Of a stretch of 64,000 nt of DNA, positions 24,408-50,591 are shown one piece after another. A program made the translations under genes and the position numbers. The stretch is from assembly GCA_001603805.1 (NCBI GenBank), contig LUZY01000014.1, positions 62,001-126,000 on the forward strand, in the 5' to 3' direction. The number at the start of each line of letters is the position of its first letter. Positions within the stretch are counted from its first letter, which is position 1. Origin of the DNA: Deferribacterales bacterium Deferri_01. Lineage in GTDB: Bacteria > Chrysiogenota > Deferribacteres > Deferribacterales > Geovibrionaceae. The notes under the pieces were generated by a model, which did no database searches, had not been told where the DNA came from, and worked only from the letters and a program-made list of their open reading frames with translations.

Positions 24408-26426
24408 ATGATAAGACAAGGCAAAATTTTGACAGCCGCCGTGATTGGTGCGGCATTCATGTTCGGGGCTGCTTCAGCGAAAGCAGAAGATGAGCGCATT
24501 TACAAACTTGGTGAAATCGAGATAACAGACTCAGTTTCATGGGTTAATTCAAAACCCATGCAGGAAGTGTCGTCTGAAGAGTTTGAAGCAGGGTCGGCTA
24601 CGAGCGTTTCAGAAGCACTTGAGCAGCTTCCTTCTGTTAATTTTACTCCCAATTCAAAAGGAGAGAAGCGTCTCAATATCAGAGGCTTTTCAGACAGATA
24701 CATTCAGGTTTACTTTGACGGTATTCCCGTTGCCCTGCCCTATGAAGCTTATATAGATTTGGGCAACTACAATACTTTCGGTATTGATAAGATAGAGCTT
24801 GAAACAGCCGGCGGTTCAGTTCTTTTCGGACCTAATGCGGCAGGCGGTGCGGTGAATATAGTTACAGCGAAGCCGAATAAGCCTTTTGAATCAGCTATAG
24901 AGTTTATGTACAAAAGCGGCGACACCTACCAGACAAGGATAGGTCTGGGGAGCAAAATAGGCAAAGCTTACGGCATGCTGTCTGTTGCGTATGAAGATTC
25001 CGACGGCTTTGAACTTCCCAGCGGGTATGATGAACGTAATGAAAACGGCGGGCTTCGTGACAACTCCGGCTACTGGAGAGGAACAATCACAGGTAAAGTC
25101 GGCTATGAGTTTGCCAAAGGCAGTGAAGTTGCTTTCGGTATAAACCACATTAACAGCAGCCTTGAACTTCCTCCCAATACCAAAGAAATAGACAACGGAA
25201 AAAATAACAGTCCTGTGCGTTACTGGAATTACGAAGAATGGGACAAGGACACCTATTACCTTCTGGGCAGTGTAAGAAAAGATAAATACGCAGTAACAGC
25301 AAGACTCTATAGAGATGAATACTATAACGTCATGAACCGTTATAAGGATAATACTTACACAGAATGTCTGAGCCCTTCATGGTGCAACAGCGCATATGAC
25401 GACTATTCCAACGGTGTAATTGTCAACACTGAGATCAAAACAGGTGCAATAAACACTGTGATCCTCAGCGGTCAGTATAAGAAAGATGTACATAAAACAA
25501 GAAATGACAAAACTCCCGAATGGGAAAAAGACGTGGCGGAAACTTACTTCGCAGGTATAGAGGACAGACTTACGCTTGGTAAATTCATCATCAGCCTCGG
25601 CGGCAGCTATGAAGTAAACAACGCCATATCCTCCGACAGCGAAGAGGAGCTTAATGACGATATAAAAGTTTTTAACCCGCAGGCAACTGTAATTTATAAT
25701 ATGTCTCCCAACACGATCTTACATGCAAAAGCGGCACGCAAAACCCGTTTTCCTTCAATGAAGGAGCTTTACTCAAGCTACTCATACAACAACGGCGGGC
25801 AGACAACATATTTTGCAAACTCTGACCTTAAAGAAGAAAAAGCCATGAACTATGAAATAGGTATTAAACAGACACTGTTCGATACTGTTCTTGTTCAGGC
25901 TAATGTTTTCTACTCAAAAATAGACGACAAGATTAACACTAAAGCTGCATACACAGGCAATGACCCGAACGCTTCAGCAGATGCACAGACATCAGACAAC
26001 ATTGATGATGTGACCATGCAGGGATTTGAAGTAATGCTCGGAGGAGATTTTACAAAAAACACCACCACAATAGCTTCATATGCTTACATTGATGCTGAGA
26101 AAAGTATCGAAGGCGACGACTCTGACATAGTTGCCGATGTCCCCGAACACAAATTCTATCTGGATCACTCATACAGAATAGGCAAAATTTTTGTTCTCGG
26201 CGGCAGAATTAATATGGAAAAAGGACGCTATTCTCAGAAATCCGATTACAGCTACAAAGAGCTTGATACATACTGGACAGCGGATCTCAGAGCTGAGGTT
26301 TCACCTTTGAAATACACTTCCATAGAGGTTGGTGTGGAGAATGTGGCGGATGAAGAATATGAGCTTTCATACGGTCTGCCTCAGGCGGGAAGAACATACT
26401 ACGCAAAGCTTAAAATGAAAATATAA
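24408..26426 (+). CDS. TonB-dependent outer-membrane receptor, ModE-box controlled
   Basis: A 672-residue TonB-dependent transporter. The signal peptide runs to about residue 27 (ASAKA|ED) and a TonB-box-like stretch is GEIEITDS. The plug domain is at about 45-165 (VSEALEQLPSVNF, KRLNIRGFSDRYIQVYFDG, GSVLFGPNAAGGAVNIVTAK), followed by a 22-strand barrel ending RTYYAKLKMKI. The C-terminal residue is Ile rather than the usual Phe. The substrate is not evident from the barrel, but the promoter is covered by a ModE box. The next gene starts 2 bp after the stop, and a ModE regulator follows. A molybdate or tungstate complex (or metallophore) is therefore the best inference; siderophore uptake is the alternative. 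Confidence 0.9.
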   Translation: MIRQGKILTAAVIGAAFMFGAASAKAEDERIYKLGEIEITDSVSWVNSKPMQEVSSEEFEAGSATSVSEALEQLPSVNFTPNSKGEKRLNIRGFSDRYIQVYFDGIPVALPYEAYIDLGNYNTFGIDKIELETAGGSVLFGPNAAGGAVNIVTAKPNKPFESAIEFMYKSGDTYQTRIGLGSKIGKAYGMLSVAYEDSDGFELPSGYDERNENGGLRDNSGYWRGTITGKVGYEFAKGSEVAFGINHINSSLELPPNTKEIDNGKNNSPVRYWNYEEWDKDTYYLLGSVRKDKYAVTARLYRDEYYNVMNRYKDNTYTECLSPSWCNSAYDDYSNGVIVNTEIKTGAINTVILSGQYKKDVHKTRNDKTPEWEKDVAETYFAGIEDRLTLGKFIISLGGSYEVNNAISSDSEEELNDDIKVFNPQATVIYNMSPNTILHAKAARKTRFPSMKELYSSYSYNNGGQTTYFANSDLKEEKAMNYEIGIKQTLFDTVLVQANVFYSKIDDKINTKAAYTGNDPNASADAQTSDNIDDVTMQGFEVMLGGDFTKNTTTIASYAYIDAEKSIEGDDSDIVADVPEHKFYLDHSYRIGKIFVLGGRINMEKGRYSQKSDYSYKELDTYWTADLRAEVSPLKYTSIEVGVENVADEEYELSYGLPQAGRTYYAKLKMKI

Positions 26427-26427
26427 G

Positions 26428-28056
26428 ATGTCACTAACCGACAGTAGCGACACTAAATGGAGAAAGGGAGCCATAGCGGGGGGCGTCTGGGGGACCTCCG
26501 AGATGACCCTCGGCTCTTTTCTTCATAACTTACGGATTCCGTTTAAAGGGCATATCCTGACGGCAATCGGCATAGCCATACTGAGCGCTTTCGGAATGAA
26601 ATGGCGCACAAGCGGCATGTTTTACAGGGCAGGGCTTACCTCAGCAATGCTTAAGGCATTTTCGCCCAGTCCTAAAGTCGTTGTCCCGATGGTGGCAATA
26701 ACAATAGAAGGCTTTCTGTTTGAGCTTGGTACACGCATTCTGGGGAGGAACGTCATAGGCTTCCTTGTCAGTGGCGGGCTTGCAATGCAGTGGGCGGTTC
26801 TCCATAAGGTTATAAGGCTTCTTATATTGTACGGAGCCAGCATATATACTGTCTATGAACAGCTTTTTGAAAAAGCGGCAACAGGGCTTGAACTTCCTTT
26901 TATCAACCCTGTGTACGGCATTGTTTTTGTGTTTGCACTGAGTTTTGCTGTAGGCGCCGGAGCATCCGCAGTGGGGTGCGCCGCAGCGGCAAAGAGCAAT
27001 GGAAGTGATGAACCCATAACCTTCGGGGACAGGCAGACGGCTCCCGCCGGCACTATGATGCAGGGCTGTGCGGGGCGCCACTCGCTCCTGTGGCTTCTGC
27101 TGCATATAGCAGTTATTGCCGTTGTTGTGGGTTTTATGGATAAAAGTGAGTGGCTCGCATACATTCTGCTGGTTTACTCACTGGCTGTCTCAGTAAGGTA
27201 CAGAAACTTTCTGAAGCGGTTTGCATCGTGGAAGATATGGCTTCCAATATTTGTAATATCATTTGTATCAGGCTTTGTGTTGAAGTCTCCGGAAGGAAAG
27301 TTCATCAGCACGCCGGGTTTTCTTGAGGGGATAAGGCTTGCAGTGAGAGCTTTTGTTACCACATGCGCTCTCAGCGGTTTGGTCTCGGAGATGGGGCATC
27401 CGCTTATAGCCGGTTTCTTCCGCCGCAGATACGGGGACAGGATAGACTCCGTACTGTCTGTAGCGTGGGGTACTGTGAACACTGTTGCTCCAAGCGTAAA
27501 GGTGAGAACATTGATAAAAAACCCTGTGAAGGGCATCGCCGGAATGATGGATTCTGTTCTTTCTTCAGATAGAAAGAGGGCAATTCTTATCACCGGGGAA
27601 GTTAACGGAGGCAAGACAACTTTTCTCAAGGCCTTCCTCAGCACACTGCCTTCGGATGCGGAAGTCAGAGGTTTTGTGGCGGAAGCTGTTTTTGAGGATG
27701 GAACAAAGACAGGATACAGCATAACAGATGTCCGCACAGGAGAAAGTGCTGAACTGTGCAGACGCACAAAGGACGGCTTCTATTTTGAACCCGCAGGGCT
27801 TGCCTTCGGTGAAAAATGTATGGGTGAAGCGCCTTATAAAAATATGTACGCTGTTTTTGATGAGGTCGGTCACTACGAAATGAGGGGCGGCGGGTGGGAC
27901 ACTTTAATAAAGAAAGTCACCGCCGGCGGTGCTGCTCCGGTTATTGCGGTCAGGCGCAGTCTCGTGGATAAGGTTTGCGGGCGTTACGGTCTTGTAAACG
28001 CAGAAATATATGATGTTGATAATATAAAAGTGCAGGCTGCTGAGTCTGCCGTATAA
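26428..28056 (+). CDS. Membrane protein fused to a THEP1-like P-loop NTPase
   Basis: A 542-residue protein starting 2 bp after the receptor stop, so probably translationally coupled. The N-terminal half is a polytopic membrane module (GGVWGTSEMTLGSFLHNLRI, then hydrophobic segments near 40-60, 85-105, 108-125 and 165-190) that resembles an ECF-type substrate-binding component. A second membrane block (about 215-355) loosely resembles an EcfT-like component (ends at ALSGLVSEMGHPLIAGFF). The C-terminal domain (about 383-535) is a THEP1/DUF2478-type nucleoside triphosphatase: Walker A GEVNGGKTTFL near residue 390 and DEVGHYEMRGGGWD near 477. Family roles are inferred. Together it looks like a one-polypeptide energised importer or chaperone for the receptor's cargo. 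Confidence 0.7.
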   Translation: MSLTDSSDTKWRKGAIAGGVWGTSEMTLGSFLHNLRIPFKGHILTAIGIAILSAFGMKWRTSGMFYRAGLTSAMLKAFSPSPKVVVPMVAITIEGFLFELGTRILGRNVIGFLVSGGLAMQWAVLHKVIRLLILYGASIYTVYEQLFEKAATGLELPFINPVYGIVFVFALSFAVGAGASAVGCAAAAKSNGSDEPITFGDRQTAPAGTMMQGCAGRHSLLWLLLHIAVIAVVVGFMDKSEWLAYILLVYSLAVSVRYRNFLKRFASWKIWLPIFVISFVSGFVLKSPEGKFISTPGFLEGIRLAVRAFVTTCALSGLVSEMGHPLIAGFFRRRYGDRIDSVLSVAWGTVNTVAPSVKVRTLIKNPVKGIAGMMDSVLSSDRKRAILITGEVNGGKTTFLKAFLSTLPSDAEVRGFVAEAVFEDGTKTGYSITDVRTGESAELCRRTKDGFYFEPAGLAFGEKCMGEAPYKNMYAVFDEVGHYEMRGGGWDTLIKKVTAGGAAPVIAVRRSLVDKVCGRYGLVNAEIYDVDNIKVQAAESAV

Positions 28057-28059
28057 AGA

Positions 28060-28225
28060 GCTTTGCCGGCGGAGGTTCTGCTTCCTGCATTTTGTCAGAA
28101 TCCTTGCCGGCACAAGAAAACAGCGGAACTGGGGGTTCCGTTGCCGTAACACTCATAAGCAGGTACACAGGGCGGCGGAGCGGAAGCATGAGTTCCTCGT
28201 CTCAGAAGCAAATGCTCCGCCTCCT
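28060..28225. other. Intergenic region with several hairpins before modE
   Basis: The 222-bp gap between the NTPase fusion and modE holds a series of stems. TGCCGGC repeats enclose TTCTG/CAGAA (within 28062-28115). CGGAAC-N5-GTTCCG lies near 28124-28140. GGCGGAGC (28174-28181) pairs with GCTCCGCC (28214-28221). No convincing gene was found on either strand and no known riboswitch core was recognised. It may be a structured leader of modE or mRNA-stabilising elements. Confidence 0.35.
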
Positions 28226-28278
28226 TCTGCTCTTCTGTCTTCACAAAAGTTTTATACGACAATTCCAGTGAGTGTGTA

Positions 28279-28659
28279 ATGAAAAAAAACGGTTATGAAA
28301 TCTCTTTTTCCAGAACAGCGGGCGATAATGTCCTTGGCGGAAGAATATGGATAGACAAGCAGGGCAGAAACTTCATTGGTCTTGGCAAAATAGTTTTTTT
28401 GGAGGCGATCAGGGAACACGGGTCAATCTCCGCTGCTGCTTCCTCACTTAATATGTCATACCGTAAAGCATGGGGGCTGGCACAGAGTATAAACGCCCTG
28501 TCCGATGAGCCTCTTGTAACAAAACAGGCAGGCGGTGCCGGCGGCGGCGGGGCGGAACTCACCGAAGAAGGTGAGAGAGTTATCTCGCTTTACTGGGATA
28601 TCTGCCGCAAGTTTGAGAAGTTTCTGGAAGTACAGCAGGAATTGATAGAGAGGTTCTGA
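28279..28659 (+). CDS. ModE family regulator (DNA-binding domain only)
   Basis: A 126-residue winged-helix protein of the ModE N-terminal type. IWIDKQGRNFIGLGKIVFLE leads to the helix-turn-helix HGSISAAASSLNMSYRKAWG. The family-typical glycine-rich wing follows (AGGAGGGGAELTEEGERVI). The C-terminal molybdate-binding TOBE (di-Mop) domains of E. coli ModE are absent. Short ModE forms are known in many bacteria, and how they sense molybdate is less clear. It should act on the palindrome at 24,338-24,363 that drives the receptor and NTPase-fusion genes. The ribosome-binding site is weak. Confidence 0.9.
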   Translation: MKKNGYEISFSRTAGDNVLGGRIWIDKQGRNFIGLGKIVFLEAIREHGSISAAASSLNMSYRKAWGLAQSINALSDEPLVTKQAGGAGGGGAELTEEGERVISLYWDICRKFEKFLEVQQELIERF

Positions 28660-28706: not shown

Positions 28707-30536
28707 ATGAGCAAAAAGCTGGCAATATGGATAAGCGTTTTGGTGACTGTTGTTCTTGTGTTCTCCACGGGAGTTTATTATTCACAGTCGCAGAAGGCAG
28801 TTCTTTTTGAGATACAAAAACGTGCCGCCGAACTCTTAAGGGCGGACAAGCGTACCGTGTCCGATTTTCTGGGGCATATCCGTTCCGTAACCTACGGTCT
28901 TTACACAAACCCGATAAACAGCCGTTTCATCTTCCACGGAGAAGGAAAAGCAAAGGCGGAAAGCCTTTTTATGGACTACTGCAACAACGTCCGTGAGGTA
29001 CAGGCTATCAGGCTTGTAGACAAGGACGGCAGGATTCAGGTCTTTATGAGAGAATGCGAAAACCTGTCCGGTGAAGCAGATTACGAACCTATAGATATTT
29101 CATCTAAAGACTTTATACAGGACGCAGCCGAACTGGACAGACCTGATATTCTCTTCAGCAAGTTTGAGCGGGGCTTTCTGCCGGATGCTGTGAGCTTCTG
29201 CCCCTCTATGATACGTACCGTTGTCCCTTATTTTGCAGGGGGTGAGCATGCGGGCTATCTGGTGGTGAATTACTGGGGCGAGCGTTTGGGCGAGGTTGTG
29301 AACAGGCTGAACAACGATGAGGGGCACGCCTTTATTGTTGAGAAAAACAAAATCAATCCTGACCGGCACGGAATTTTCCTTTTCCACAGAAACAAAAGCT
29401 ACGAGTTCGCAAATCAGATGCAGCATAGCCACCGCTTTCAGACTGTTTACGGCGAAGATGTCTTTGATGAACTAGTCAAAGGGCTGGACGGCATAATCCG
29501 GCTTAAAAACGGTGATTTTCTTGGCTATACTACGGTTTATCCATACGAAGGGACTGATATTTCCTGGAAAGTCTGCACTGTGATAGATGCCAAGTACGCC
29601 TTCCGCAATCTTCAGGCACTTAAGATGGGCTTTATCCTTGTTCTGTCTCTTTCTGTATTTCTTGCGGTCTTGACAGCATTTATATTTGCAGAAAGATTCC
29701 TCCGCCCTCTTGGCGGGCTGAAAACCGCTCTGGAAAGCTACGGCAGGGGCGAACTGGACTATGAGATAAAAGAAAAATATACTGACGAACTGGGCGATAT
29801 TGCTGAAAAAGTGCAGGAGATGGCACATTCTCTGCGAAGGTACATCGGTGAGCGTGAAACATCGCAGAAAAGGATGGAGCTTGCTGACAGGCTCTCATCA
29901 TTAAGTATATTAAGCGCAGGGGTTTCCCATGAGCTTTCGACTCCGCTGAATTCTATTCTTCTTGCTGCTACACTGCTGGAGAAACAATACGGGCTCAGTG
30001 ATGAGGTGCAGGCGGTTAAAACTCAGGCTGAAAGATGCGTGGAGATAATAGCCTCAATGAAACGCCTCGTGGCGGACGGGTATGACAGCTGCACAAAGGA
30101 ACGGCTGAACCTGAAGGAGCTTGTGAGCGAGGCTGTGCGCTTTATGCGTGCCGGCGGCGGAGTGGTGATAGAAACCAGGCTTGAGGATGCATACATAGAA
30201 GGCTGCCGGACTCTTCTGAATCAGGCATTTCTGAATATAGCGGTAAATGCTGTTGATGCTGTCTACCCCGAGGGCAGGGTGGTTTTTCGTCTGTTTAGGG
30301 ATAAAGGGAAAGTTATACTGGAAGCGGAAGACAACGGAAGCGGAATAGAGCCGGAGAAGCTTGAAAAAATATTCGACCCGTTTTTCACCACGAAATCACC
30401 GGATAAGGGAACTGGGCTTGGGCTCTCCATAACTCACAGGATAATCACCGAACACGGCGGCAGGATAAGTGTTAAAAGCGAAAAAGGGAAAGGGACATCC
30501 ATAAGGTGTGAATTTAATGAAAGTAGTGATAGTTGA
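28707..30536 (+). CDS. Membrane sensor histidine kinase (partner of NtrC-type regulator)
   Basis: A 609-residue kinase. TM1 is at about 5-25 and a large periplasmic double-Cache-like sensor spans about 30-300 (VQAIRLVDKDGRIQVFM; VVPYFAGGEHAGYLVVNYWG). TM2 is at about 308-330, and HAMP follows at about 330-385 (FLRPLGGLKTALESYGRGEL). The phospho-His box is GVSHELSTPLNSILLAAT (about 409-425). The ATPase domain has NAVDAV (N box), DNGSGI (G1) and GTGLGLS (G2). The downstream NtrC-type regulator gene overlaps its 3' end by 20 bp, so the two form one two-component system. The likely target is the sigma-54-dependent cytochrome gene at 32,667. Confidence 0.92.
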   Translation: MSKKLAIWISVLVTVVLVFSTGVYYSQSQKAVLFEIQKRAAELLRADKRTVSDFLGHIRSVTYGLYTNPINSRFIFHGEGKAKAESLFMDYCNNVREVQAIRLVDKDGRIQVFMRECENLSGEADYEPIDISSKDFIQDAAELDRPDILFSKFERGFLPDAVSFCPSMIRTVVPYFAGGEHAGYLVVNYWGERLGEVVNRLNNDEGHAFIVEKNKINPDRHGIFLFHRNKSYEFANQMQHSHRFQTVYGEDVFDELVKGLDGIIRLKNGDFLGYTTVYPYEGTDISWKVCTVIDAKYAFRNLQALKMGFILVLSLSVFLAVLTAFIFAERFLRPLGGLKTALESYGRGELDYEIKEKYTDELGDIAEKVQEMAHSLRRYIGERETSQKRMELADRLSSLSILSAGVSHELSTPLNSILLAATLLEKQYGLSDEVQAVKTQAERCVEIIASMKRLVADGYDSCTKERLNLKELVSEAVRFMRAGGGVVIETRLEDAYIEGCRTLLNQAFLNIAVNAVDAVYPEGRVVFRLFRDKGKVILEAEDNGSGIEPEKLEKIFDPFFTTKSPDKGTGLGLSITHRIITEHGGRISVKSEKGKGTSIRCEFNESSDS

Positions 30537-31800
30537 GGACGATAAAACCCTCTGCGGGCTGCTGAAAAAGAGCCTTGAAAATGAATTTAACGTTACTGCA
30601 TTTTACGAACCGGAAAAAGCTCTGGCACACATAAAGAGCGCCGGGACTGATGCCGTGGTGTCTGACGTGCGAATGCCGGGGATGACGGGCTTTGAACTTC
30701 TGGAGGCTCTTCGAGAGGATATGCCGGAGGTGCGCCTTATCCTCATGACAGGCTATGGGACAGTCACGGAATCCGTAAACGCAATCAAAAGCGGCGCATA
30801 TGACTACATCCTTAAGCCCGTTGATCCTGACATACTCATAAAAAAGCTCGATCAGATACGCACCCTTCTGGACTTTGGCAGACAAAGTGCCGGAAGCTTC
30901 GCACCTATATTTAAATCAAGAAAATTTGACGATATAATGCAGCTTGCCGCCCGTGCCGCAAAGGCAGACAGCGGTGTTTTGATCACAGGCGAGACAGGGA
31001 CAGGCAAAGAGGTCATCGCCCGTTTTATCCACGGGGTTTCTTCCCGCAAGACAGCCCCTTTTATTGCGGTAAACTGCGGAAATATGCAGGAGCAGCTTTT
31101 TGAAAGTGAGCTTTTCGGCTATCGAAAAGGGGCGTTTACCGGAGCTGATACAAATAAACGGGGTCTTGTTTCCGCTGCTGAAAGGGGCACTCTGTTTCTT
31201 GATGAAATAGGTGAGCTTCCCCTGCCCTCACAGTCGAAGCTGCTTCGTTTTATAGAAACAAGAACCTACTATCCCCTTGGCTCAGTGGAGCCTAAGACGG
31301 CAAATGTGCGCTTCATAGCCGCAACAAACCGCAACCCAGCCGAAGAAGCTGAAAACGGTACTTTCAGAAAAGACCTTTATTACAGGCTGAATGTGGTTGA
31401 GATCAAAGTTCCGCCACTCCGTGACAGGAAAGAGGATATTATGCCTCTTGCAGAACATTTTCTCGGCAGGTTCCGTCATATTAATCCTAAAATTGAAGGT
31501 TTTTCCCCTGATGCAGTTCAGGCTTTGGAAAACTATTCTTATCCGGGAAATGTGCGTGAGCTTTCAAATATAATAGAGCGTGCCGTGATTCTTGAAACAG
31601 GGCACAGAGTGTCTCCGGCATCACTCCACATGACAGGTTCGGCGGAACGGACCGTTTCAAAAAAGCTGGATGATGTTGTGCGTGAGCATATACTCGCTGC
31701 TCTGGCTGAAGCGGGCGGAAGCAAGGCGAAAGCAGCGGAGATTCTGGGAATCGACGCCTCCACAATCTACCGCAGACTCAAGGAATACGGTATAAACTAA
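30517..31800 (+). CDS. Sigma-54-dependent response regulator (NtrC family)
   Basis: A 427-residue activator in three parts. The receiver is at about 1-120 ([18 protein letters not shown] with phospho-Asp, YILKPVDP). The AAA+ sigma-54 interaction domain is at about 135-365 (Walker [10 protein letters not shown], the GAFTGAD loop in [16 protein letters not shown], Walker [14 protein letters not shown]). A Fis-type helix-turn-helix is at the C-terminus ([22 protein letters not shown]). ATG at 30517 is chosen because MKVVIVEDD is the natural receiver start; the in-frame GTG at 30508 would add only three residues. It overlaps the kinase gene and probably binds the twin palindromes at 32,493-32,528. 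Confidence 0.93.
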
Positions 31801-31921: not shown

Positions 31922-32467
31922 ATGAAGAATATTCTTGTACTTACAGGAAGCCCCAGAAAGGGCGGAAACAGCGATCTGCTTGCAGATGCCTTCATTAAAG
32001 GAGCAGAAGAAGCAGGGCATAAGGTGAGCAAGTTTGCCTCAGCAGAAAAGAAGATAGCCGGATGCCGTGCCTGTGACAAATGCTGGACAACGGGAACAGC
32101 GTGTATTTTTCCCGATGACTTCAGGGAATTAGCTCCTTTGGTGGAGGAAGCGGATACATTGGTTATTGTTTCTCCTGTTTACTGGTTTACAATGTCTGCA
32201 CAGATAAAAGCTGCAATAGACAGGCTTTATGCTTATTACACTCCGAATAGAAAAAAAGACCTTAAGCTCACAGAAACTGTTCTGCTCTCCTGCGCTGCGG
32301 ATGAGCCCAGTGTGTTCAAAGGGCTGGAGGAGACCTATAAGTCCCTGCTAGCATACACAGGATGGAAGGATGCGGGTATCATAACAGTGCCCGAAGTCTC
32401 AGATAAAGGTGACATACTTAAAACAGGTGCGTTAACAAAAGCAGAAGAGCTTGGAAAAAGTATCTGA
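31922..32467 (+). CDS. Flavodoxin-fold NAD(P)H-dependent FMN reductase / iron-sulfur flavoprotein-like
   Basis: A 181-residue flavodoxin-like protein. The FMN phosphate loop is LTGSPRKGGNSDLLADAF, then a Cys-rich segment CRACDKCWTTGTACIFPDDF (about 49-68) and a second flavin-binding stretch TLVIVSPVYWFTMSAQIKAA. The CxxC-x6-C spacing resembles the cysteine cluster of archaeal/anaerobe iron-sulfur flavoproteins, though it is not the exact compact motif. It probably transfers electrons from NAD(P)H in the cytoplasm; the substrate is unknown. GGGAG lies 8 bp before the ATG. It sits between the two-component genes and the sigma-54 promoter. Confidence 0.82.
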   Translation: MKNILVLTGSPRKGGNSDLLADAFIKGAEEAGHKVSKFASAEKKIAGCRACDKCWTTGTACIFPDDFRELAPLVEEADTLVIVSPVYWFTMSAQIKAAIDRLYAYYTPNRKKDLKLTETVLLSCAADEPSVFKGLEETYKSLLAYTGWKDAGIITVPEVSDKGDILKTGALTKAEELGKSI

Positions 32468-32492: not shown

Positions 32493-32528
32493 TTGCAATT
32501 TGCAAGAAACCTGTTTTGCAAAATGCAA
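32493..32528. promoter_or_regulatory. Twin upstream activator sites for an NtrC-type regulator
   Basis: TTGCAATTTGCAA (32493-32505) and TTGCAAAATGCAA (32516-32528) are two TTGCA-N3-TGCAA palindromes, 23 bp apart centre to centre. They share 15 of 17 positions when flanks are included. They lie about 100 bp upstream of a -24/-12 promoter, the usual place for enhancer sites of sigma-54 activators. The activator encoded at 30,517 is the obvious candidate. Confidence 0.75.
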
Positions 32529-32614
32529 GATTCCTATATAAAAACTAGTCTTTCTGCACCTGATAACCTGTTTATAAATCATGTTTTTTCATAAGTTTAT
32601 CTTTTGCCCTTCCG

Positions 32615-32630
32615 TGGCATGTTCATTGCT
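32615..32630 (+). promoter_or_regulatory. Sigma-54 (-24/-12) promoter
   Basis: TGGCAT-N5-TTGCT, with GG (32616-32617) and GC (32628-32629) exactly 10 bp apart, matches the RpoN consensus TGGCAC-N5-TTGCW. Transcription should start near 32,641, upstream of the GGAGG ribosome-binding site (32652-32656) and the ATG at 32667. Confidence 0.85.
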
Positions 32631-32666
32631 CAATACAAAGCAAGCATACACGGAGGTTTATTAAAT

Positions 32667-34574
32667 ATGAAGAAACTCATAATAGTCTGTTTTATGACTC
32701 TTTTCTGTTTCGGTGTTGTGCAGGCTGCGGAACAGTCTTCCTGCATTTCATGTCACGGAAACAAAGCGGAAATGGAAAAACTCGGTTACCCCCAGCTTTA
32801 TCTTGATCCTGTTGAAGTTGAAAAAGAGGTCAACATGGGTGAGGTTGCCTGTGAGGACTGCCATATGGGAAACCCTGCTGAAATGACAGCAGAAAAAGCC
32901 CACGAGGGAATGCCCCGCCCCTTTTACGCTGCTGCCGGCAAAACCCTTAAGTATCAGGCAGTGGGCAGAGAGGTCACAAACTATGACCCCATACAGCCCA
33001 AAGGTAAGGAACGCTTTAAGTTCCTCATGAGAAAACCTGATCCTCAGCAGGCAAAAGAGAAAGGCATAGCTGTTCTCGCACAGCTTTACTACCATGACCA
33101 CGATCCCGAAACCATGGCGTATGATCCTTCCGTTGCGGAAAAAACATGCGGAAAATGCCATGAAAACGAAGTTAAGGAATATAACGTTTCCGGTATGGGT
33201 CTGAACAAGTATCAGAGAGGCTTCACAAACTTCAGCGACCTGAAACCCGGCCCTCAGAACTGTGGTGCTTGGTTCGGCGATAACCATGACAAAATAGGTG
33301 CAGAGCTTGCCGTTGAGTATCCCAAGGCGCATGGGGACGGCTCGGCAAGAGGCTGCAACAAATGTCATGCAAGCTGTAATGACTGCCACTATAAAGGTTA
33401 TGAAAAATCAAACGCACGCCACGTTTATCAGAAAGATCCCGAACCTCTTTCATGCTACGGAAGCGGTAAAGGTACAATCTGCCACGCCGGACCAATGGAC
33501 AGAAGAAGAGGCGCAGGCTACATGAGAGAGGAATTCGCATTCCCTATACATGAACTCGCTGAAGATGTTCACGCTAAAAACGGAGTAACCTGCAACGATT
33601 GTCATAAAATGGAGAGCCACAGTTACGGGCATCTCAGTTCGCAGTCCGCACGGGAATCATGCAAAAACTGCCACGAAGAAATATATAACGCAGCCCTCGA
33701 AAGCCCGGATCACGGCAATGTAGATTGTACATCCTGCCATATTCAGGCTGTAGGGGCTTACCAGTTTACTTTCTGGGGTCCCGGAAAGCAGGAAGCACAG
33801 GTTAAAGCCCTTGCAAAACATAAAGAATATTACGGCACAAGAAGCCAGCCCACCCTCGTAAAGCATCCCGAAAGAGGAGTATGGATTCCCATGAAACCCT
33901 ACCCCATGGGAGTTCTCAACATGAAGGATGATGTCAAGGGAGTGAACAAGCTGATTCTTCGTGAGATTGAACCCACTATGGTGAAAGGAAACGCCAAGAT
34001 CGGCGAGCAGGACTTCACTCTTGAAAGAAAACCCGATGAAGTGAACGACATGTACATCATGAACGGCACGTATAAGCTGAAAAAGAACAATAAGATGCTT
34101 GCATGGATTCAGATGGATAAAATGAGCCACTCCATAGGCGAAGCAAGAAACTGCGACTCATGCCACTCTTCACACGATCAGATTGCTACCTCATGGTGGA
34201 CATACGATGCTTCTAATGATGTCAAGAAACCCTTTAACGGCAGCTACATAATCCGCGGAACCAAAAAGGGTCTGTTCTTCACCGACTGGAAGTACGAAAC
34301 TCCTGAACCCGCAGCAGGGATGGACACAGAGGATTTTATGCCCTTCATCAATTCCGGCAATGTTTGGGATACCAAAGGCATAGACTTTTCAATACCCTTT
34401 GATGATAAGAAATATGCTGATGCCAGAAGTGATTATGAACTTCTTTACGGAAAACTCCATGGTCTTGAGCAGCAGTATGCGAAGGATCAGGCAAAACTTG
34501 ATACTATCAAGCTTGCCAGAAAGATACTTCCCCACAACCCGAAAAAAGCCGCAGAGATGGTAAGCGGTTTTTAA
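32667..34574 (+). CDS. Periplasmic multihaem cytochrome c (nine CxxCH plus one CX8CH), sigma-54 dependent
   Basis: A 635-residue exported cytochrome: signal peptide MKKLIIVCFMTLFCFGVVQA, then nine CxxCH motifs (CISCH, CEDCH, CGKCH, CNKCH, CNDCH, CNDCH, CKNCH, CTSCH, CDSCH). Two of these are almost contiguous (CNKCHASCNDCH). An extra CYGSGKGTICH has eight residues between the cysteines and may be an atypical haem site, as in sulfite reductase MccA, which uses a longer spacing. The C-terminal 150 residues are haem-free. Related proteins include octahaem oxidoreductases of the HAO/OTR/MccA group and ExtKL-type electron-transfer cytochromes; which one is undecided. The start is fixed by GGAGG and by the sigma-54 promoter lying downstream of the longer ORF start. 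Confidence 0.88.
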   Translation: MKKLIIVCFMTLFCFGVVQAAEQSSCISCHGNKAEMEKLGYPQLYLDPVEVEKEVNMGEVACEDCHMGNPAEMTAEKAHEGMPRPFYAAAGKTLKYQAVGREVTNYDPIQPKGKERFKFLMRKPDPQQAKEKGIAVLAQLYYHDHDPETMAYDPSVAEKTCGKCHENEVKEYNVSGMGLNKYQRGFTNFSDLKPGPQNCGAWFGDNHDKIGAELAVEYPKAHGDGSARGCNKCHASCNDCHYKGYEKSNARHVYQKDPEPLSCYGSGKGTICHAGPMDRRRGAGYMREEFAFPIHELAEDVHAKNGVTCNDCHKMESHSYGHLSSQSARESCKNCHEEIYNAALESPDHGNVDCTSCHIQAVGAYQFTFWGPGKQEAQVKALAKHKEYYGTRSQPTLVKHPERGVWIPMKPYPMGVLNMKDDVKGVNKLILREIEPTMVKGNAKIGEQDFTLERKPDEVNDMYIMNGTYKLKKNNKMLAWIQMDKMSHSIGEARNCDSCHSSHDQIATSWWTYDASNDVKKPFNGSYIIRGTKKGLFFTDWKYETPEPAAGMDTEDFMPFINSGNVWDTKGIDFSIPFDDKKYADARSDYELLYGKLHGLEQQYAKDQAKLDTIKLARKILPHNPKKAAEMVSGF

Positions 34575-34604: not shown

Positions 34605-34643
34605 AAGCCCCCGGATATGATTCATTCCGGGGGCTTTGTTGTT
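34605..34643. terminator. Bidirectional terminator between cytochrome and MCP genes
   Basis: AAGCCCCCGGA (34605-34615) pairs with TCCGGGGGCTT (34626-34636) around a 10-base loop. T-rich sequence lies on both outer sides: TTTGTTGTTTT rightward and, on the minus strand, CTTCTTTTTTC. It separates convergent genes and can serve both. Confidence 0.88.
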
Positions 34644-34661
34644 TTAAGGATTTTGTACTAA

Positions 34662-46233: not shown

Positions 46234-48615
46234 ATGAACGTTTCAAGACGAGATTTTATAAAGCTTACAGCCGCTGCAAGCGCTGCAGCTGCGGCGGGCA
46301 TCTCCTTTCCCGAAGCTGCGCAGGCTCAGGAAAGCGCTGATGTGGAAAAATGGGTTAAAGGAACATGCCGTTTCTGCGGAACAGGCTGCGGTGTTTATGT
46401 CGGTGTAAAAGACGGCAAAGCAGTTGCGATAAAAGGAAACCCCGATGCTAAAACAAACTTCGGCTTTCTCTGTGTTAAGGGATTCCTCGCATTTAAATGT
46501 ATGTACCATCCCGACAGGCTGAAAATGCCCCTTGTCCGTCAGAAAAACGGCAAGTTTAAGGAAACATCATGGAACGAGGCCCTTGACCTCGTGGCAAATA
46601 AATTTAAATACCTTCGTGAAAAATACGGTAAAGACGCTGTAGCTTACTACGGCAGCGGTCAGTGTACAACGGAGGAAACATATACATTCAACAAGCTCTG
46701 GAAAGGCGGCTTCGGCAGCAACATGGTGGAAGGAAACCCCAGACTCTGCATGGCATCAGCTGTTGCCGGCTACATATCCACATTCGGTTCTGATGAGCCT
46801 ATGGGAAGCTATTCGGATATCGAAAGCTCAAAATGTATCTTTATCACAGGTTCAAATATGAGCGAATGCCACCCTGTTATATACAGAAGGGTAATGCGCC
46901 ATAAAATGAAAAACCCCGATGTTAAGATAATAGTTTGCGAACCCAGAAGGACAAGTACGGCGAAAATTGCAGATCTCTGGCTCCCCAATGACCCAGGAAC
47001 AGACCTTGCAGTGTTTCATGCAATGGCGAATGTGATCATAGCAAAAAATCTTCATAACATGGATTTCATCAATAAACATTCACGCATTACCACAGGCAAG
47101 GATGTTGTTGACTTTGAGGAATACAAAAAATTCCTTTCCCAGTTCACGCCTGAAGCAGTTGAAAAACTTACAAGATGCCCTGCTGATCATATAGTTAAGG
47201 CTGCCGAATGGTTTGCCACAAGCGGTGCCACTCTCTCCATGTGGTGCATGGGTCTCAACCAGCGTAAAAGAGGAATGTGGGCAAACAACCTTGTACACAA
47301 CCTTCATATAATAACAGGGGAAATGGGTAAACCCGGTGCAGATTCCTTCTCGCTCACAGGTCAGCCTAACGCCTGCGGCGGTGTTCGTGAAACGGGCGCC
47401 CTTTCCCATCTTCTCCCCGGAACAAAACCTGTGGCGAACGATAAGTGGCGCGCTCATGTGGAAAAAGCCTGGAATATTCCTGCGGGTACAATCAATCCCA
47501 AACCAGGATTCCATACTATGCTGATGTTTGAAAAACTCGGCGGTGAAAAGGATGCTGAAAAGCCGATTAAAGGAATGCTTGTAAGCACCACAAACCCTGC
47601 ACAGTCTCTGCCCAACCTGCACAAATATGTTAAGGGAATGCAGGACAGCTTCCTTGTGGTTCTGGATATTTTCCCCACAAGAACAACACAGCTCGCTGAC
47701 GTTATTCTTCCCGCTGCTTTCATTTATGAAAAGGGCGGAGTTTACGGATGTTCAGAGCGCAGAAGCCAGCTTACGGAAAAAGCAGTTGAGCCGGTGGGAC
47801 AGGCAAAACCTGACCTTTGGATTGCCGCTCAGATTGCAAAAAGAATGGGGTTTGAAAAGCTCATTCCTTGGAACGGAAACGACTCCATGAAGGCAAATGA
47901 GCAGGCATGGACAGACTATATAACAGTTACAAAAGACACTGAACACACCCTTTGGGGAGCGACTTACGACAGGCTCAAAAAAGAGAAAGCAGGCATACAG
48001 TGGCCCTGCCCCTCTGTTGACCACCCCGGAACGGAAAGACGCTATGTCAGAGGACAGGACCCTATGTTTGAGCATCCCGCTGAAAAGGATCACATCCCTT
48101 CTGATGCAACAATCTACTTCTATGCGGATGCTAAAAAGGAAGGCAAGCTTAATCTTTTCCTCCGTCCGTACGATGGACCGGGCGAAATGCCTGACAAGGA
48201 ATACACTTTCTTCCTCACTACAGGAAGAGTTGTGGAACAGTGGCACACGGGAACAATGACAATGCGTATTCCCGAAATAGCCAGAACTCACCCGAACGCA
48301 TATATAGAACTGCATCCTGACGATGCTAAACAGCTTGGTATAACCGCAGGGGACATGGTGGAGATAGTGAGCAGAAGAGGCAAGTCCGTCATGCCGGCGG
48401 TAATAACAAAAGGCACTCTTCCGGGTGTTGCTTTTGTTCCGTGGCATGATCAAGCAATGGCAAGGATGATCAACTTCGTATGCAACGACGTTGTAGACCC
48501 CGATTCAAAAGAACCGGAATACAAAGTTGCCGCAGTGCGCATTAACAGGGTAAGCGGACCGAAGGACGTTGCGGATAAGTACATAATAGACGATGTAAAC
48601 GCTCCTTTTGCTTAA
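46234..48615 (+). CDS. napA: Periplasmic nitrate reductase catalytic subunit
   Basis: A 793-residue molybdopterin oxidoreductase reducing nitrate to nitrite in the periplasm. The twin-arginine signal is NVSRRDFIKLTAAASAAAA. A [4Fe-4S] site has CRFCGTGCGVYVG plus a fourth Cys in GFLCVKGF. The Mo-coordinating Cys lies in GNPRLCMASAVAGYISTFGSDEP. The C-terminal domain includes TGRVVEQWHTGTMTMRIPEI. NapA carries a single Cys Mo ligand and bis-MGD. It lacks a following napB gene, which resembles the monomeric NapA type of Desulfovibrio. It belongs to napMADGH, and its cofactor links it to the molybdate locus at 24-28 kb. Confidence 0.95.
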   Translation: MNVSRRDFIKLTAAASAAAAAGISFPEAAQAQESADVEKWVKGTCRFCGTGCGVYVGVKDGKAVAIKGNPDAKTNFGFLCVKGFLAFKCMYHPDRLKMPLVRQKNGKFKETSWNEALDLVANKFKYLREKYGKDAVAYYGSGQCTTEETYTFNKLWKGGFGSNMVEGNPRLCMASAVAGYISTFGSDEPMGSYSDIESSKCIFITGSNMSECHPVIYRRVMRHKMKNPDVKIIVCEPRRTSTAKIADLWLPNDPGTDLAVFHAMANVIIAKNLHNMDFINKHSRITTGKDVVDFEEYKKFLSQFTPEAVEKLTRCPADHIVKAAEWFATSGATLSMWCMGLNQRKRGMWANNLVHNLHIITGEMGKPGADSFSLTGQPNACGGVRETGALSHLLPGTKPVANDKWRAHVEKAWNIPAGTINPKPGFHTMLMFEKLGGEKDAEKPIKGMLVSTTNPAQSLPNLHKYVKGMQDSFLVVLDIFPTRTTQLADVILPAAFIYEKGGVYGCSERRSQLTEKAVEPVGQAKPDLWIAAQIAKRMGFEKLIPWNGNDSMKANEQAWTDYITVTKDTEHTLWGATYDRLKKEKAGIQWPCPSVDHPGTERRYVRGQDPMFEHPAEKDHIPSDATIYFYADAKKEGKLNLFLRPYDGPGEMPDKEYTFFLTTGRVVEQWHTGTMTMRIPEIARTHPNAYIELHPDDAKQLGITAGDMVEIVSRRGKSVMPAVITKGTLPGVAFVPWHDQAMARMINFVCNDVVDPDSKEPEYKVAAVRINRVSGPKDVADKYIIDDVNAPFA

Positions 48616-48635
48616 ACCTCCATCTCTATTTCTTC

Positions 48636-48675
48636 CCGTATCCGTTCCCGCTCTCGACCGGCGGGGCGGATACGG
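48636..48675 (+). promoter_or_regulatory. Strong intercistronic hairpin between napA and napD
   Basis: CCGTATCCG (48636-48644) pairs with CGGATACGG (48667-48675), with an inner CCCGC/GCGGG. No T-run follows, so it is unlikely to be a classical terminator. It may stabilise the napMA part of the mRNA or lower napDGH expression. Confidence 0.6.
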
Positions 48676-48698
48676 CCTTATATTAAGGAGTATTTATT

Positions 48699-49022
48699 AT
48701 GATATTTACAGGCAGCATAATTTCTTTTGAGGCAGGACAGAGTGCGGAAGCCCTTAAGCTGCTGGAAAAATTTCCGGAAATAGAAGTCCACACATTTTCT
48801 GAAGATGGAAACAATGCAGTGGTTTCAATAGAGACAAACGACAGCAAGGCACTGGAAAACATTACGGATAAACTTAAAAAAGCAGACGGCATCAAAGATA
48901 TAGCCCATCATTACATGTATTTCGGTGAAGAAACTGAAAAACTTCTCACCGAAGACGCTGCCTCCACGGAACTCGGCGCATTCTTCAAAAGCGCAAGGAT
49001 TAAAAACGGCAAAGCATTATGA
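48699..49022 (+). CDS. napD: NapD chaperone
   Basis: A 107-residue cytoplasmic chaperone that binds the twin-arginine signal of NapA before export. It has the NapD ferredoxin-like beta-alpha-beta-beta-alpha-beta fold with TGSIISFEAGQSAEALKLLEKFPEIEVH and AVVSIETNDSKALENITDKL. The family end is followed by an extra acidic tail of about 30 residues. It has a good AAGGAG site and overlaps napG by ATGA. Confidence 0.85.
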   Translation: MIFTGSIISFEAGQSAEALKLLEKFPEIEVHTFSEDGNNAVVSIETNDSKALENITDKLKKADGIKDIAHHYMYFGEETEKLLTEDAASTELGAFFKSARIKNGKAL

Positions 49023-49771
49023 GTCTGCGTGAAAAAGTGAAAAACCACCTGAATAAAAACCCGTTTAAGGGCTATTTCAGGCGGAATAGGCTGCGCCCGC
49101 CCGGCGCTGTGATGGAAGAGAAGTTTATGGAACTGTGCATCCGCTGTGCAAGGTGCATAGAGGTATGCCCATATGAATCGGTGAAAAGAGCAGACCTTTT
49201 TGACAGGCTTCAGATAGGTACTCCGTATGTTTATGCAGATGAGCGTGCCTGCTATCTCTGTATGCTCTGTCCTTCTGTCTGCCCGACGGGAGCCCTTGAC
49301 CCTAATCTGAAAGAGCCGGAAAAAGTGCGGATGGGCATTGCCTACATAGAGCAGGACAAATGCCTCAACTATCTTTATGTAAAGGATGAAAACGCCGGAG
49401 GAACTCAAGGGTTCGCCATGATATGTTCCACATGCTACAACACGTGCCCCTACACTGACGAGGCTATTAAGATGGAGCAGTTTCTTCTTCCGGTGATAAC
49501 AGATAAATGCACCGGCTGCGGTATATGTGTGGAAAAATGCCCCACCGACCCTAAGTCCATCAGCATAATCCCCGCCGGAATGGGGAATGAAGACCTTGCC
49601 GGACTTTACTATCAGCGCTCCCGCAAAAACTTTAAAAAAGCAGGAGACGCAGAAGGATACAGCGGTGATGACGCCATTAAGAAAAAAATGAGCATAGATG
49701 CGTCCGGTTCAAAACCGGAGTTTAAGTTTGATTATGAAACCACGGATAAGATAGATGGCTGGACAGAGTAA
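49019..49771 (+). CDS. napG: NapG-like ferredoxin (four [4Fe-4S] motifs, no evident signal peptide)
   Basis: A 250-residue poly-ferredoxin with four cluster motifs: CIRCARCIEVCP, CYLCMLCPSVCP, CSTCYNTCP with an associated Cys, and CTGCGICVEKCP. Canonical NapG is exported by a twin-arginine signal, but this N-terminus (MSLREKVKNHLNKNPFKGYF) has no hydrophobic stretch or RR-x-F-x-K motif. It may stay in the cytoplasm or be carried by a partner. Position between napD and napH and the cluster pattern support NapG over NapF. It overlaps napD by 4 bp and napH by 17 bp. Confidence 0.82.
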   Translation: MSLREKVKNHLNKNPFKGYFRRNRLRPPGAVMEEKFMELCIRCARCIEVCPYESVKRADLFDRLQIGTPYVYADERACYLCMLCPSVCPTGALDPNLKEPEKVRMGIAYIEQDKCLNYLYVKDENAGGTQGFAMICSTCYNTCPYTDEAIKMEQFLLPVITDKCTGCGICVEKCPTDPKSISIIPAGMGNEDLAGLYYQRSRKNFKKAGDAEGYSGDDAIKKKMSIDASGSKPEFKFDYETTDKIDGWTE

Positions 49772-50591
49772 GATAAAAAGATACAGGCGGCTTGTTCAGG
49801 CAGCGGTTTTTATGATGATGTTCATCATACCAGCGCTGAACATCCTTGAAATATACTTCATCAAAGGCACATTCTATTCCATTGATGTGGGCAATGCCGT
49901 TGCTGCGGATCCCATTGCTGTATTTCAGGCGGCAATGTCATCAAAGTCGGTGAATATATATATGGCGCTTTCCGTTGTTATACCGATCCTGCTGATGCTT
50001 TTTGCAGGCAGGGTGTGGTGTTCATGGATGTGTCCTTATCATTTCATCGTGGAAGGAGTAAGCTTTGTTAAAAGAAAGCTCGGTATGAAAAAAAGTTTTC
50101 CCGTGCATACTCCTGAAAAGAAAAGACGCACCGAAACGGCGAGGCTTATCATACTCGTCTGTTTTATTGCTTTGGCAGGTGTTGCGGGGATTCCTCTGCT
50201 GAATCTTATTTCAGCACCGGGGATTATATCATCACAGGCATTGGTGCTTGTTAAGTTCCATTATGTGACATTTGAGCTTGTGTTCATCATAGCTCTTATA
50301 ATTGCGGAGTTTGTATTCTTCCCTTTTTTCTGGTGCAGACTTTTCTGCCCCACGGGAACTTTTCTTTCTCTGTTTAAATCAGAAAGAGGAATGCACCTTA
50401 AGCGTGTTTCCTCAAGCTGTTCCATGTGTGGTTCCTGCAAGCGTGCCTGTCCAATGGGGCTTGACCCGGTAACAGACGGAAGCAGCCTTCTTTGCCACAA
50501 CTGCGGTGACTGTATTGACGTTTGCCCTGATAATAAAAAACAAGAGACCCTCCGTTTTATAAGCGGCAGGCAGCATAACTTTCCTTCATAG
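49755..50591 (+). CDS. napH: NapH, membrane iron-sulfur quinol-oxidising subunit
   Basis: A 278-residue membrane protein with about four helices. Two conserved CxxxCP loops (VWCSWMCPYH near residue 90 and FWCRLFCPTG near residue 197) face the cytoplasm in the family. A C-terminal double-cluster ferredoxin has CSMCGSCKRACPMG and CHNCGDCIDVCP. With NapG it is thought to form a quinol dehydrogenase that feeds the periplasmic Nap chain. It is the last nap gene, and a strong terminator follows. Confidence 0.9.
   Translation: MAGQSKIKRYRRLVQAAVFMMMFIIPALNILEIYFIKGTFYSIDVGNAVAADPIAVFQAAMSSKSVNIYMALSVVIPILLMLFAGRVWCSWMCPYHFIVEGVSFVKRKLGMKKSFPVHTPEKKRRTETARLIILVCFIALAGVAGIPLLNLISAPGIISSQALVLVKFHYVTFELVFIIALIIAEFVFFPFFWCRLFCPTGTFLSLFKSERGMHLKRVSSSCSMCGSCKRACPMGLDPVTDGSSLLCHNCGDCIDVCPDNKKQETLRFISGRQHNFPS

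Follow-up and report, generated by a model that had tools for sequence, protein, structure and literature searches.

A kinase and NtrC-type regulator pair conserved beside a periplasmic multihaem cytochrome gene with a predicted sigma-54 promoter in Deferribacterales

We analyzed a window of 64,000 nucleotides from Deferribacterales bacterium Deferri_01 (contig LUZY01000014.1, positions 62,001 to 126,000), in which a gene for a multihaem cytochrome lies downstream of genes for a sensor kinase and an NtrC-type regulator. The features of this locus, in window coordinates, are as follows.

28707 to 30536, plus strand: sensor histidine kinase with a periplasmic double Cache domain (28788 to 29660), HAMP, HisKA and HATPase domains (Pfam; sensor model with pLDDT 82 and dCache fold; adjoins the cytochrome gene in relatives)
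30520 to 31800, plus strand: NtrC-type response regulator with receiver domain, sigma-54 activation domain (GAFTGAD) and Fis-type helix-turn-helix (Pfam, sequence, conservation)
31922 to 32467: FMN reductase gene, between the regulator and cytochrome genes
32493 to 32505, unstranded: upstream palindrome 1, TTGCAATTTGCAA, proposed activator site (sequence and conservation)
32516 to 32528, unstranded: upstream palindrome 2, TTGCAAAATGCAA, proposed activator site (sequence and conservation)
32615 to 32629, plus strand: predicted -24/-12 sigma-54 promoter element, TGGCATGTTCATTGC, with GG at 32616-32617 and GC at 32628-32629 (sequence, conservation, presence of RpoN)
32652 to 32656, plus strand: ribosome-binding site GGAGG (sequence)
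32667 to 34574, plus strand: predicted periplasmic multihaem cytochrome of 635 amino acids (ATG at 32667, stop codon ending at 34574)
34607 to 34645, plus strand: probable intrinsic terminator, hairpin GCCCCCGG...CCGGGGGC followed by a T-rich tract (direct sequence reading)

With its ATG at 30520, the regulator gene overlaps the 3' end of the kinase gene, and the two palindromes are spaced by 23 bp from start to start. A transcript start of the cytochrome gene at about position 32640 is a reasonable prediction. The original prediction had placed two TTGCA-N3-TGCAA palindromes upstream of a GG-N10-GC element in front of the cytochrome gene, and a GAFTGAD-type activator gene further upstream; both palindromes are exact and in position, and the NtrC gene carries the GAFTGAD motif. 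On the other side of the pair, the segment from 24408 to 28659 encodes, in a row, a TonB-dependent receptor, a protein whose NTPase_1 domain follows a long, membrane-like N-terminus, and a DNA-binding protein resembling ModE; this is perhaps a molybdate or metal uptake locus.

Taken alone, these motifs are unremarkable in 64 kb: the pattern TGGCA-N6-TTGC was found once against 1.0 expected, and palindromes with at most one mismatch four times against 4.5 expected. The exact palindrome occurs 7 times in the 2.85-Mb genome (reversed control, 0), and a pair of them occurs only once, upstream of the cytochrome gene. A genome-wide search for the paired palindrome plus a -24/-12 element had been proposed as a means of defining the regulon; in the search for paired palindromes, the cytochrome promoter was the sole hit. 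No TGGCA..TTGC element was found in the 4 to 5 kb fetched around each of the other five exact palindromes, and a wider regulon in this genome was rejected since these lack a nearby -24/-12 element; single palindromes inspected in other genomes were mostly inside coding sequence. A dedicated circuit with the cytochrome gene as its only predicted target in this genome is strongly supported. In the upstream regions of 18 orthologous cytochrome genes, 15 exact palindromes were present against 0.045 expected from dinucleotide shuffles, and GGCA-N7-TG[CT] was kept in 18/18, at -60 to -25 in 17 of them (0.06 expected) and at -69 in the remaining one, although these sequences are kin and the counts not independent events. 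The element ends in GC in 16 regions. Where two good sites are present, their starts are mostly 21 to 23 or 31 bp apart, or about two or three helical turns, whereas in three genomes (G012, G017 and G024) the palindromes are weak and the pair scores at or near the shuffle level. Conservation across orthologous upstream regions rules out a chance origin of the motifs. RpoN is encoded in the window's genome and in all 19 other genomes checked, so that the GG-N10-GC element, the GAFTGA motif in the AAA+ activator and the sigma factor are all present, as expected of a sigma-54 promoter. Separately, Seleniivibrio contains a second pair of TTGCA palindromes (L066:2278-2322, L067:2511-2556) in front of a different kinase gene, which follows another NtrC-type regulator gene and has, by eye, a GG-N10-GC match near its start.

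The cytochrome was searched for in 99 genomes, and the neighborhoods of the 17 orthologues other than the window's own were fetched and read. All 18 full-length orthologues belong to one order, Deferribacterales, and the other 17 are 58 to 83% identical to that of the window. The regulator gene adjoins the cytochrome gene in 18/18 loci and so does the kinase gene, which is broken in one of them (G018); the pair is upstream and collinear in 17 loci and convergent in one (L044), and the other neighbors of the unit vary. Misassembly as the source of this linkage is ruled out by its presence in 18 separate genomes. The FMN reductase gene was rejected as a member of the unit because none of the other 17 loci has it at the corresponding position. 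Three genomes of the window's genus carry unrelated genes between regulator and cytochrome (31922-32467 in the window, L031:7516-7824 and L032:7280-7813), and the gap is therefore an apparent insertion spot. Carriers are scattered inside several families (1 of 4, 1 of 3 and 1 of 2 genomes), and the kinase follows the same pattern. Outside the order, the cytochrome was found only in three WOR-3 metagenome-assembled genomes (MAGs) and one Melioribacteraceae MAG (L054, L056, L057 and L059). In the WOR-3 loci, kinase- and regulator-like genes precede it by eye, with a sensor match in two; in the Melioribacteraceae MAG the cytochrome stands without the sensor and no kinase- or regulator-like genes precede it. 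These orthologues may reflect horizontal transfer or mis-binning (MAG contamination). In D. autotrophicus (L034; G018:C6, ~214,000-216,000), the kinase gene lacks about 65 codons in its sensor region and carries a frameshift, so that control may differ there; regulator and cytochrome are intact.

The distribution of the sensor domain was determined with a profile, which matched in 19 of 384 genomes, namely, the 18 cytochrome carriers and G020, which we take to be Flexistipes sinusarabici. Its kinase (L102:5997-8459) is 95% identical to that of its sister as far as residue 361, where it ends, and a transposase-like gene follows. Neither the regulator nor the cytochrome had a match in the 16 kb fetched around this kinase, which suggests joint loss of both alongside the truncation. 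Among genomes G000 to G044, co-occurrence of sensor and cytochrome has a Fisher's exact P of 1e-11, a value uncorrected for ancestry. The original prediction of a Cache domain in the kinase was borne out: Pfam dCache_1 matches just below its cutoff (E 3.9e-11; 43.4 bits against 45), and the model (pLDDT 82) has a double Cache fold nearest to VpHK1S-Z8 (3lid, 2p7j) and then to amino acid chemoreceptors, which identifies the sensor as a double Cache domain. Two stretches are invariant, FERGxLP....FCPxMxR and RxGxFxFH....EFANQ, and they include segments of low model confidence, which might be like parts that close on a ligand. Amino acid sensors of the dCache_1AA type have an R-x-W-Y motif and further ligand residues (R126, W128, Y129, Y144 and D173 in PctA); at the apparent place of this motif, the sequences here read [KR]-x-F-[FI].

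The cytochrome has 9 CXXCH motifs and, by eye, a signal peptide. A further motif, CYGxGxGTxCH (CX8CH; residues 263 to 273, positions 33453 to 33485), is invariant in 18/18 orthologues, as is an additional cysteine, C199, in the sequence PGPQNCG. The protein is thus predicted to be a periplasmic cytochrome with nine or ten haems. No Pfam or NCBIfam model spans it and it has no full-length match to a curated family; weak matches in Pfam are to Cytochrom_c3_2 and Mtrc-MtrF. No solved structure matched in a PDB profile search beyond short stretches of haem motifs, and the AlphaFold model (pLDDT 41) was not used for a fold search. Known reductases were considered individually. For NrfA, there is no PF02335 match, and the alignment shows CXXCH and CX8CH as haem motifs rather than CXXCK. 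For Hao, the cytochrome has no match to PF13447, whereas the Hao encoded in its neighborhood in G018 does. The sulfite-reducing cytochromes MccA and SirA are likewise periplasmic and multihaem, and they too combine an unusually long motif of the haem type with an additional invariant cysteine; however, their motif is CX15CH, not the CX8CH found in all 18 orthologues, the PDB profile search gave no match to them, and no dedicated haem-lyase gene was seen near the window's cytochrome gene. By analogy with CX15CH, CX8CH may mark a haem site of an unconventional kind, or else a metal site; the string CX8CH was not found in use in a literature search.

The closest known system is NrfS-NrfR with nrfHA of Desulfovibrio (regulator DVU0621), which shares with the window's unit the sigma-54-dependent two-component pair, the GAFTGA-type regulator, the adjoining target genes for periplasmic multihaem cytochromes and the small number of target sites per genome (PMC3333781, PMC4641369, PMC5701242). 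NrfS-NrfR responds to nitrite, and its targets are nrf and, in the Desulfovibrio species D. desulfuricans, also nap. In contrast, no matching paired palindrome precedes nap in the window, and the output differs from NrfHA in its 9 CXXCH plus CX8CH motifs, the lack of a PF02335 match and the lack of an adjoining NrfH gene. The control logic is a known one, and the output protein matches no curated family over its length.

The gene order, the anatomy of promoter and sites, their conservation and the joint presence and absence of the genes are read directly from the genomes. We infer from them a dedicated circuit with one output, leading from the kinase via the NtrC-type regulator and the sigma-54 promoter to the cytochrome. 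This circuit, proposed in the original prediction, is well supported and quite probable because of the co-location in 18/18 loci, the conserved sites and -24/-12 element, the unique pair of sites, the matching distribution of the sensor and the joint loss in Flexistipes; this assessment concerns the circuit and not the substrate. In such a circuit, the kinase would bind a small molecule in the periplasm via its double Cache domain and phosphorylate the regulator encoded by the overlapping next gene. Regulator dimers would then bind the two TTGCA-N3-TGCAA sites, and the GAFTGA loop would open the sigma-54 promoter in front of the cytochrome gene. The soluble, nine- or ten-haem cytochrome would be fed by the general electron pool of the periplasm and reduce a soluble small molecule, in the simplest case the sensed compound or its precursor. 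What the kinase senses may be an electron acceptor or the product of one, and the role of the cytochrome may be respiratory, or else protective or purely electron carrying. Since the distributions of sensor and cytochrome are nearly equal, the ligand of the sensor would point to the substrate of the cytochrome.

Among the carriers, G012, G005 and G002 are presumably Calditerrivibrio, Denitrovibrio and G. thiophilus, and the noncarrier G023 we take to be Mucispirillum. The cytochrome is carried by these three and by D. autotrophicus, and it is absent from the D. desulfuricans of this order (G025) and present in Seleniivibrio woodruffii (L058). According to Table 2 of PMC6896113, Calditerrivibrio, D. 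autotrophicus, Denitrovibrio and G. thiophilus produce ammonium, D. desulfuricans stops at nitrite, and Mucispirillum and S. woodruffii do not reduce nitrate; Seleniivibrio is thus an exception to a nitrogen-related function. We identify G018 as D. autotrophicus because it carries two CooS genes over the cutoff, a trait called unique in the phylum in PMC6896113. Its gene order, nap genes, Hao, small protein, Hcp, cytochrome, NtrC, matches that around FHQ18_08740, so that its cytochrome should be FHQ18_08740, for which a possible role in nitrite reduction has been proposed (PMC6896113). Judging from gene order, DEFABY_v1_50072 of D. abyssi, a "cytochrome c3" gene three loci after Hao that PMC13186404 suggests for Fe(III) reduction, is probably the same gene. 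In the accessible parts of both papers, these roles (nitrite or Fe(III)) are discussed from position and presence, and sensor, regulator and promoter go unmentioned.

In the window, the cytochrome gene is followed after about 12 kb by a periplasmic nitrate reductase (nap) cluster (46234-50591). The distance between NapA and the cytochrome is 11.7 kb in the window and 12 to 44 kb in its genus. In G018 it is 4.5 kb, whereas five other genomes with both on one contig have them 200 kb to more than 1 Mb apart. Conserved nap linkage was rejected, as it does not extend beyond the window's genus and D. autotrophicus; Hcp, Hao and the NrfA family were rejected as partners since their phyletic profiles do not follow that of the cytochrome. 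Our best guess for the substrate is a nitrogen oxide of nitrate ammonification, i.e., nitrite, NO or hydroxylamine, but it is held tentatively and at clearly less than an even chance because of the Seleniivibrio exception, the distant NapA and the nonmatching distributions of Hcp, Hao and the NrfA family.

The same circuit might instead serve a ligand and substrate other than a nitrogen oxide, such as an organic acceptor or an oxyanion of sulfur, of another metalloid or of a halogen. We consider this a serious possibility that falls only somewhat short of an even chance: Seleniivibrio, the lack of conserved nitrogen genes adjoining the unit in most genomes and the lack of a full-length family match are in its favor, whereas the nap-hao-hcp genes adjoining the cytochrome gene in D. 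autotrophicus and the agreement of carriers with ammonium production in the few strains tested (PMC6896113) argue for a nitrogen oxide. The weak Cytochrom_c3_2 and Mtrc-MtrF matches would agree with a role in carrying electrons for the reduction of Fe(III) or for extracellular reduction, but in the loci read no outer membrane partner genes adjoin the cytochrome gene. Moreover, Denitrovibrio, Calditerrivibrio and G. thiophilus, none of them a known Fe(III) reducer, are among the carriers. Such a function, suggested from an observation on Fe(III) reducers of one clade, is unlikely, given also that the Fe(III) reducer D. thermophilus lacks a homologue of that gene, both points as reported in PMC13186404. 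As to the regulator, the paired palindromes of Seleniivibrio lie beside a different NtrC-type regulator, so that this type of site is not unique to one regulator, and another such protein could drive the cytochrome promoter while the adjacent pair controls something else. Given the absence of a second paired site from the window's genome, the strict co-occurrence of kinase and cytochrome and the joint loss in Flexistipes, we regard this as very improbable.

A bolder reading, which we put forward as a long shot, is that the cytochrome is the founding member of a new family of reductases for small molecules in the periplasm, switched by its own double Cache kinase and with an active center formed by a CX8CH haem or by a metal site of C199, C263, C272 and H273, and that in Deferribacterota it supplies the step from nitrite or NO to ammonium where NrfA is thought to be absent. 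According to PMC6896113, Deferribacterota form ammonium from nitrate partly without a recognized NrfA, and a dedicated, switchable cytochrome is therefore a useful candidate. The kinase-regulator-cytochrome unit has remained intact as a neighborhood throughout an order of anaerobic bacteria, and an anonymous multihaem cytochrome becomes part of a testable pair of signal and output.
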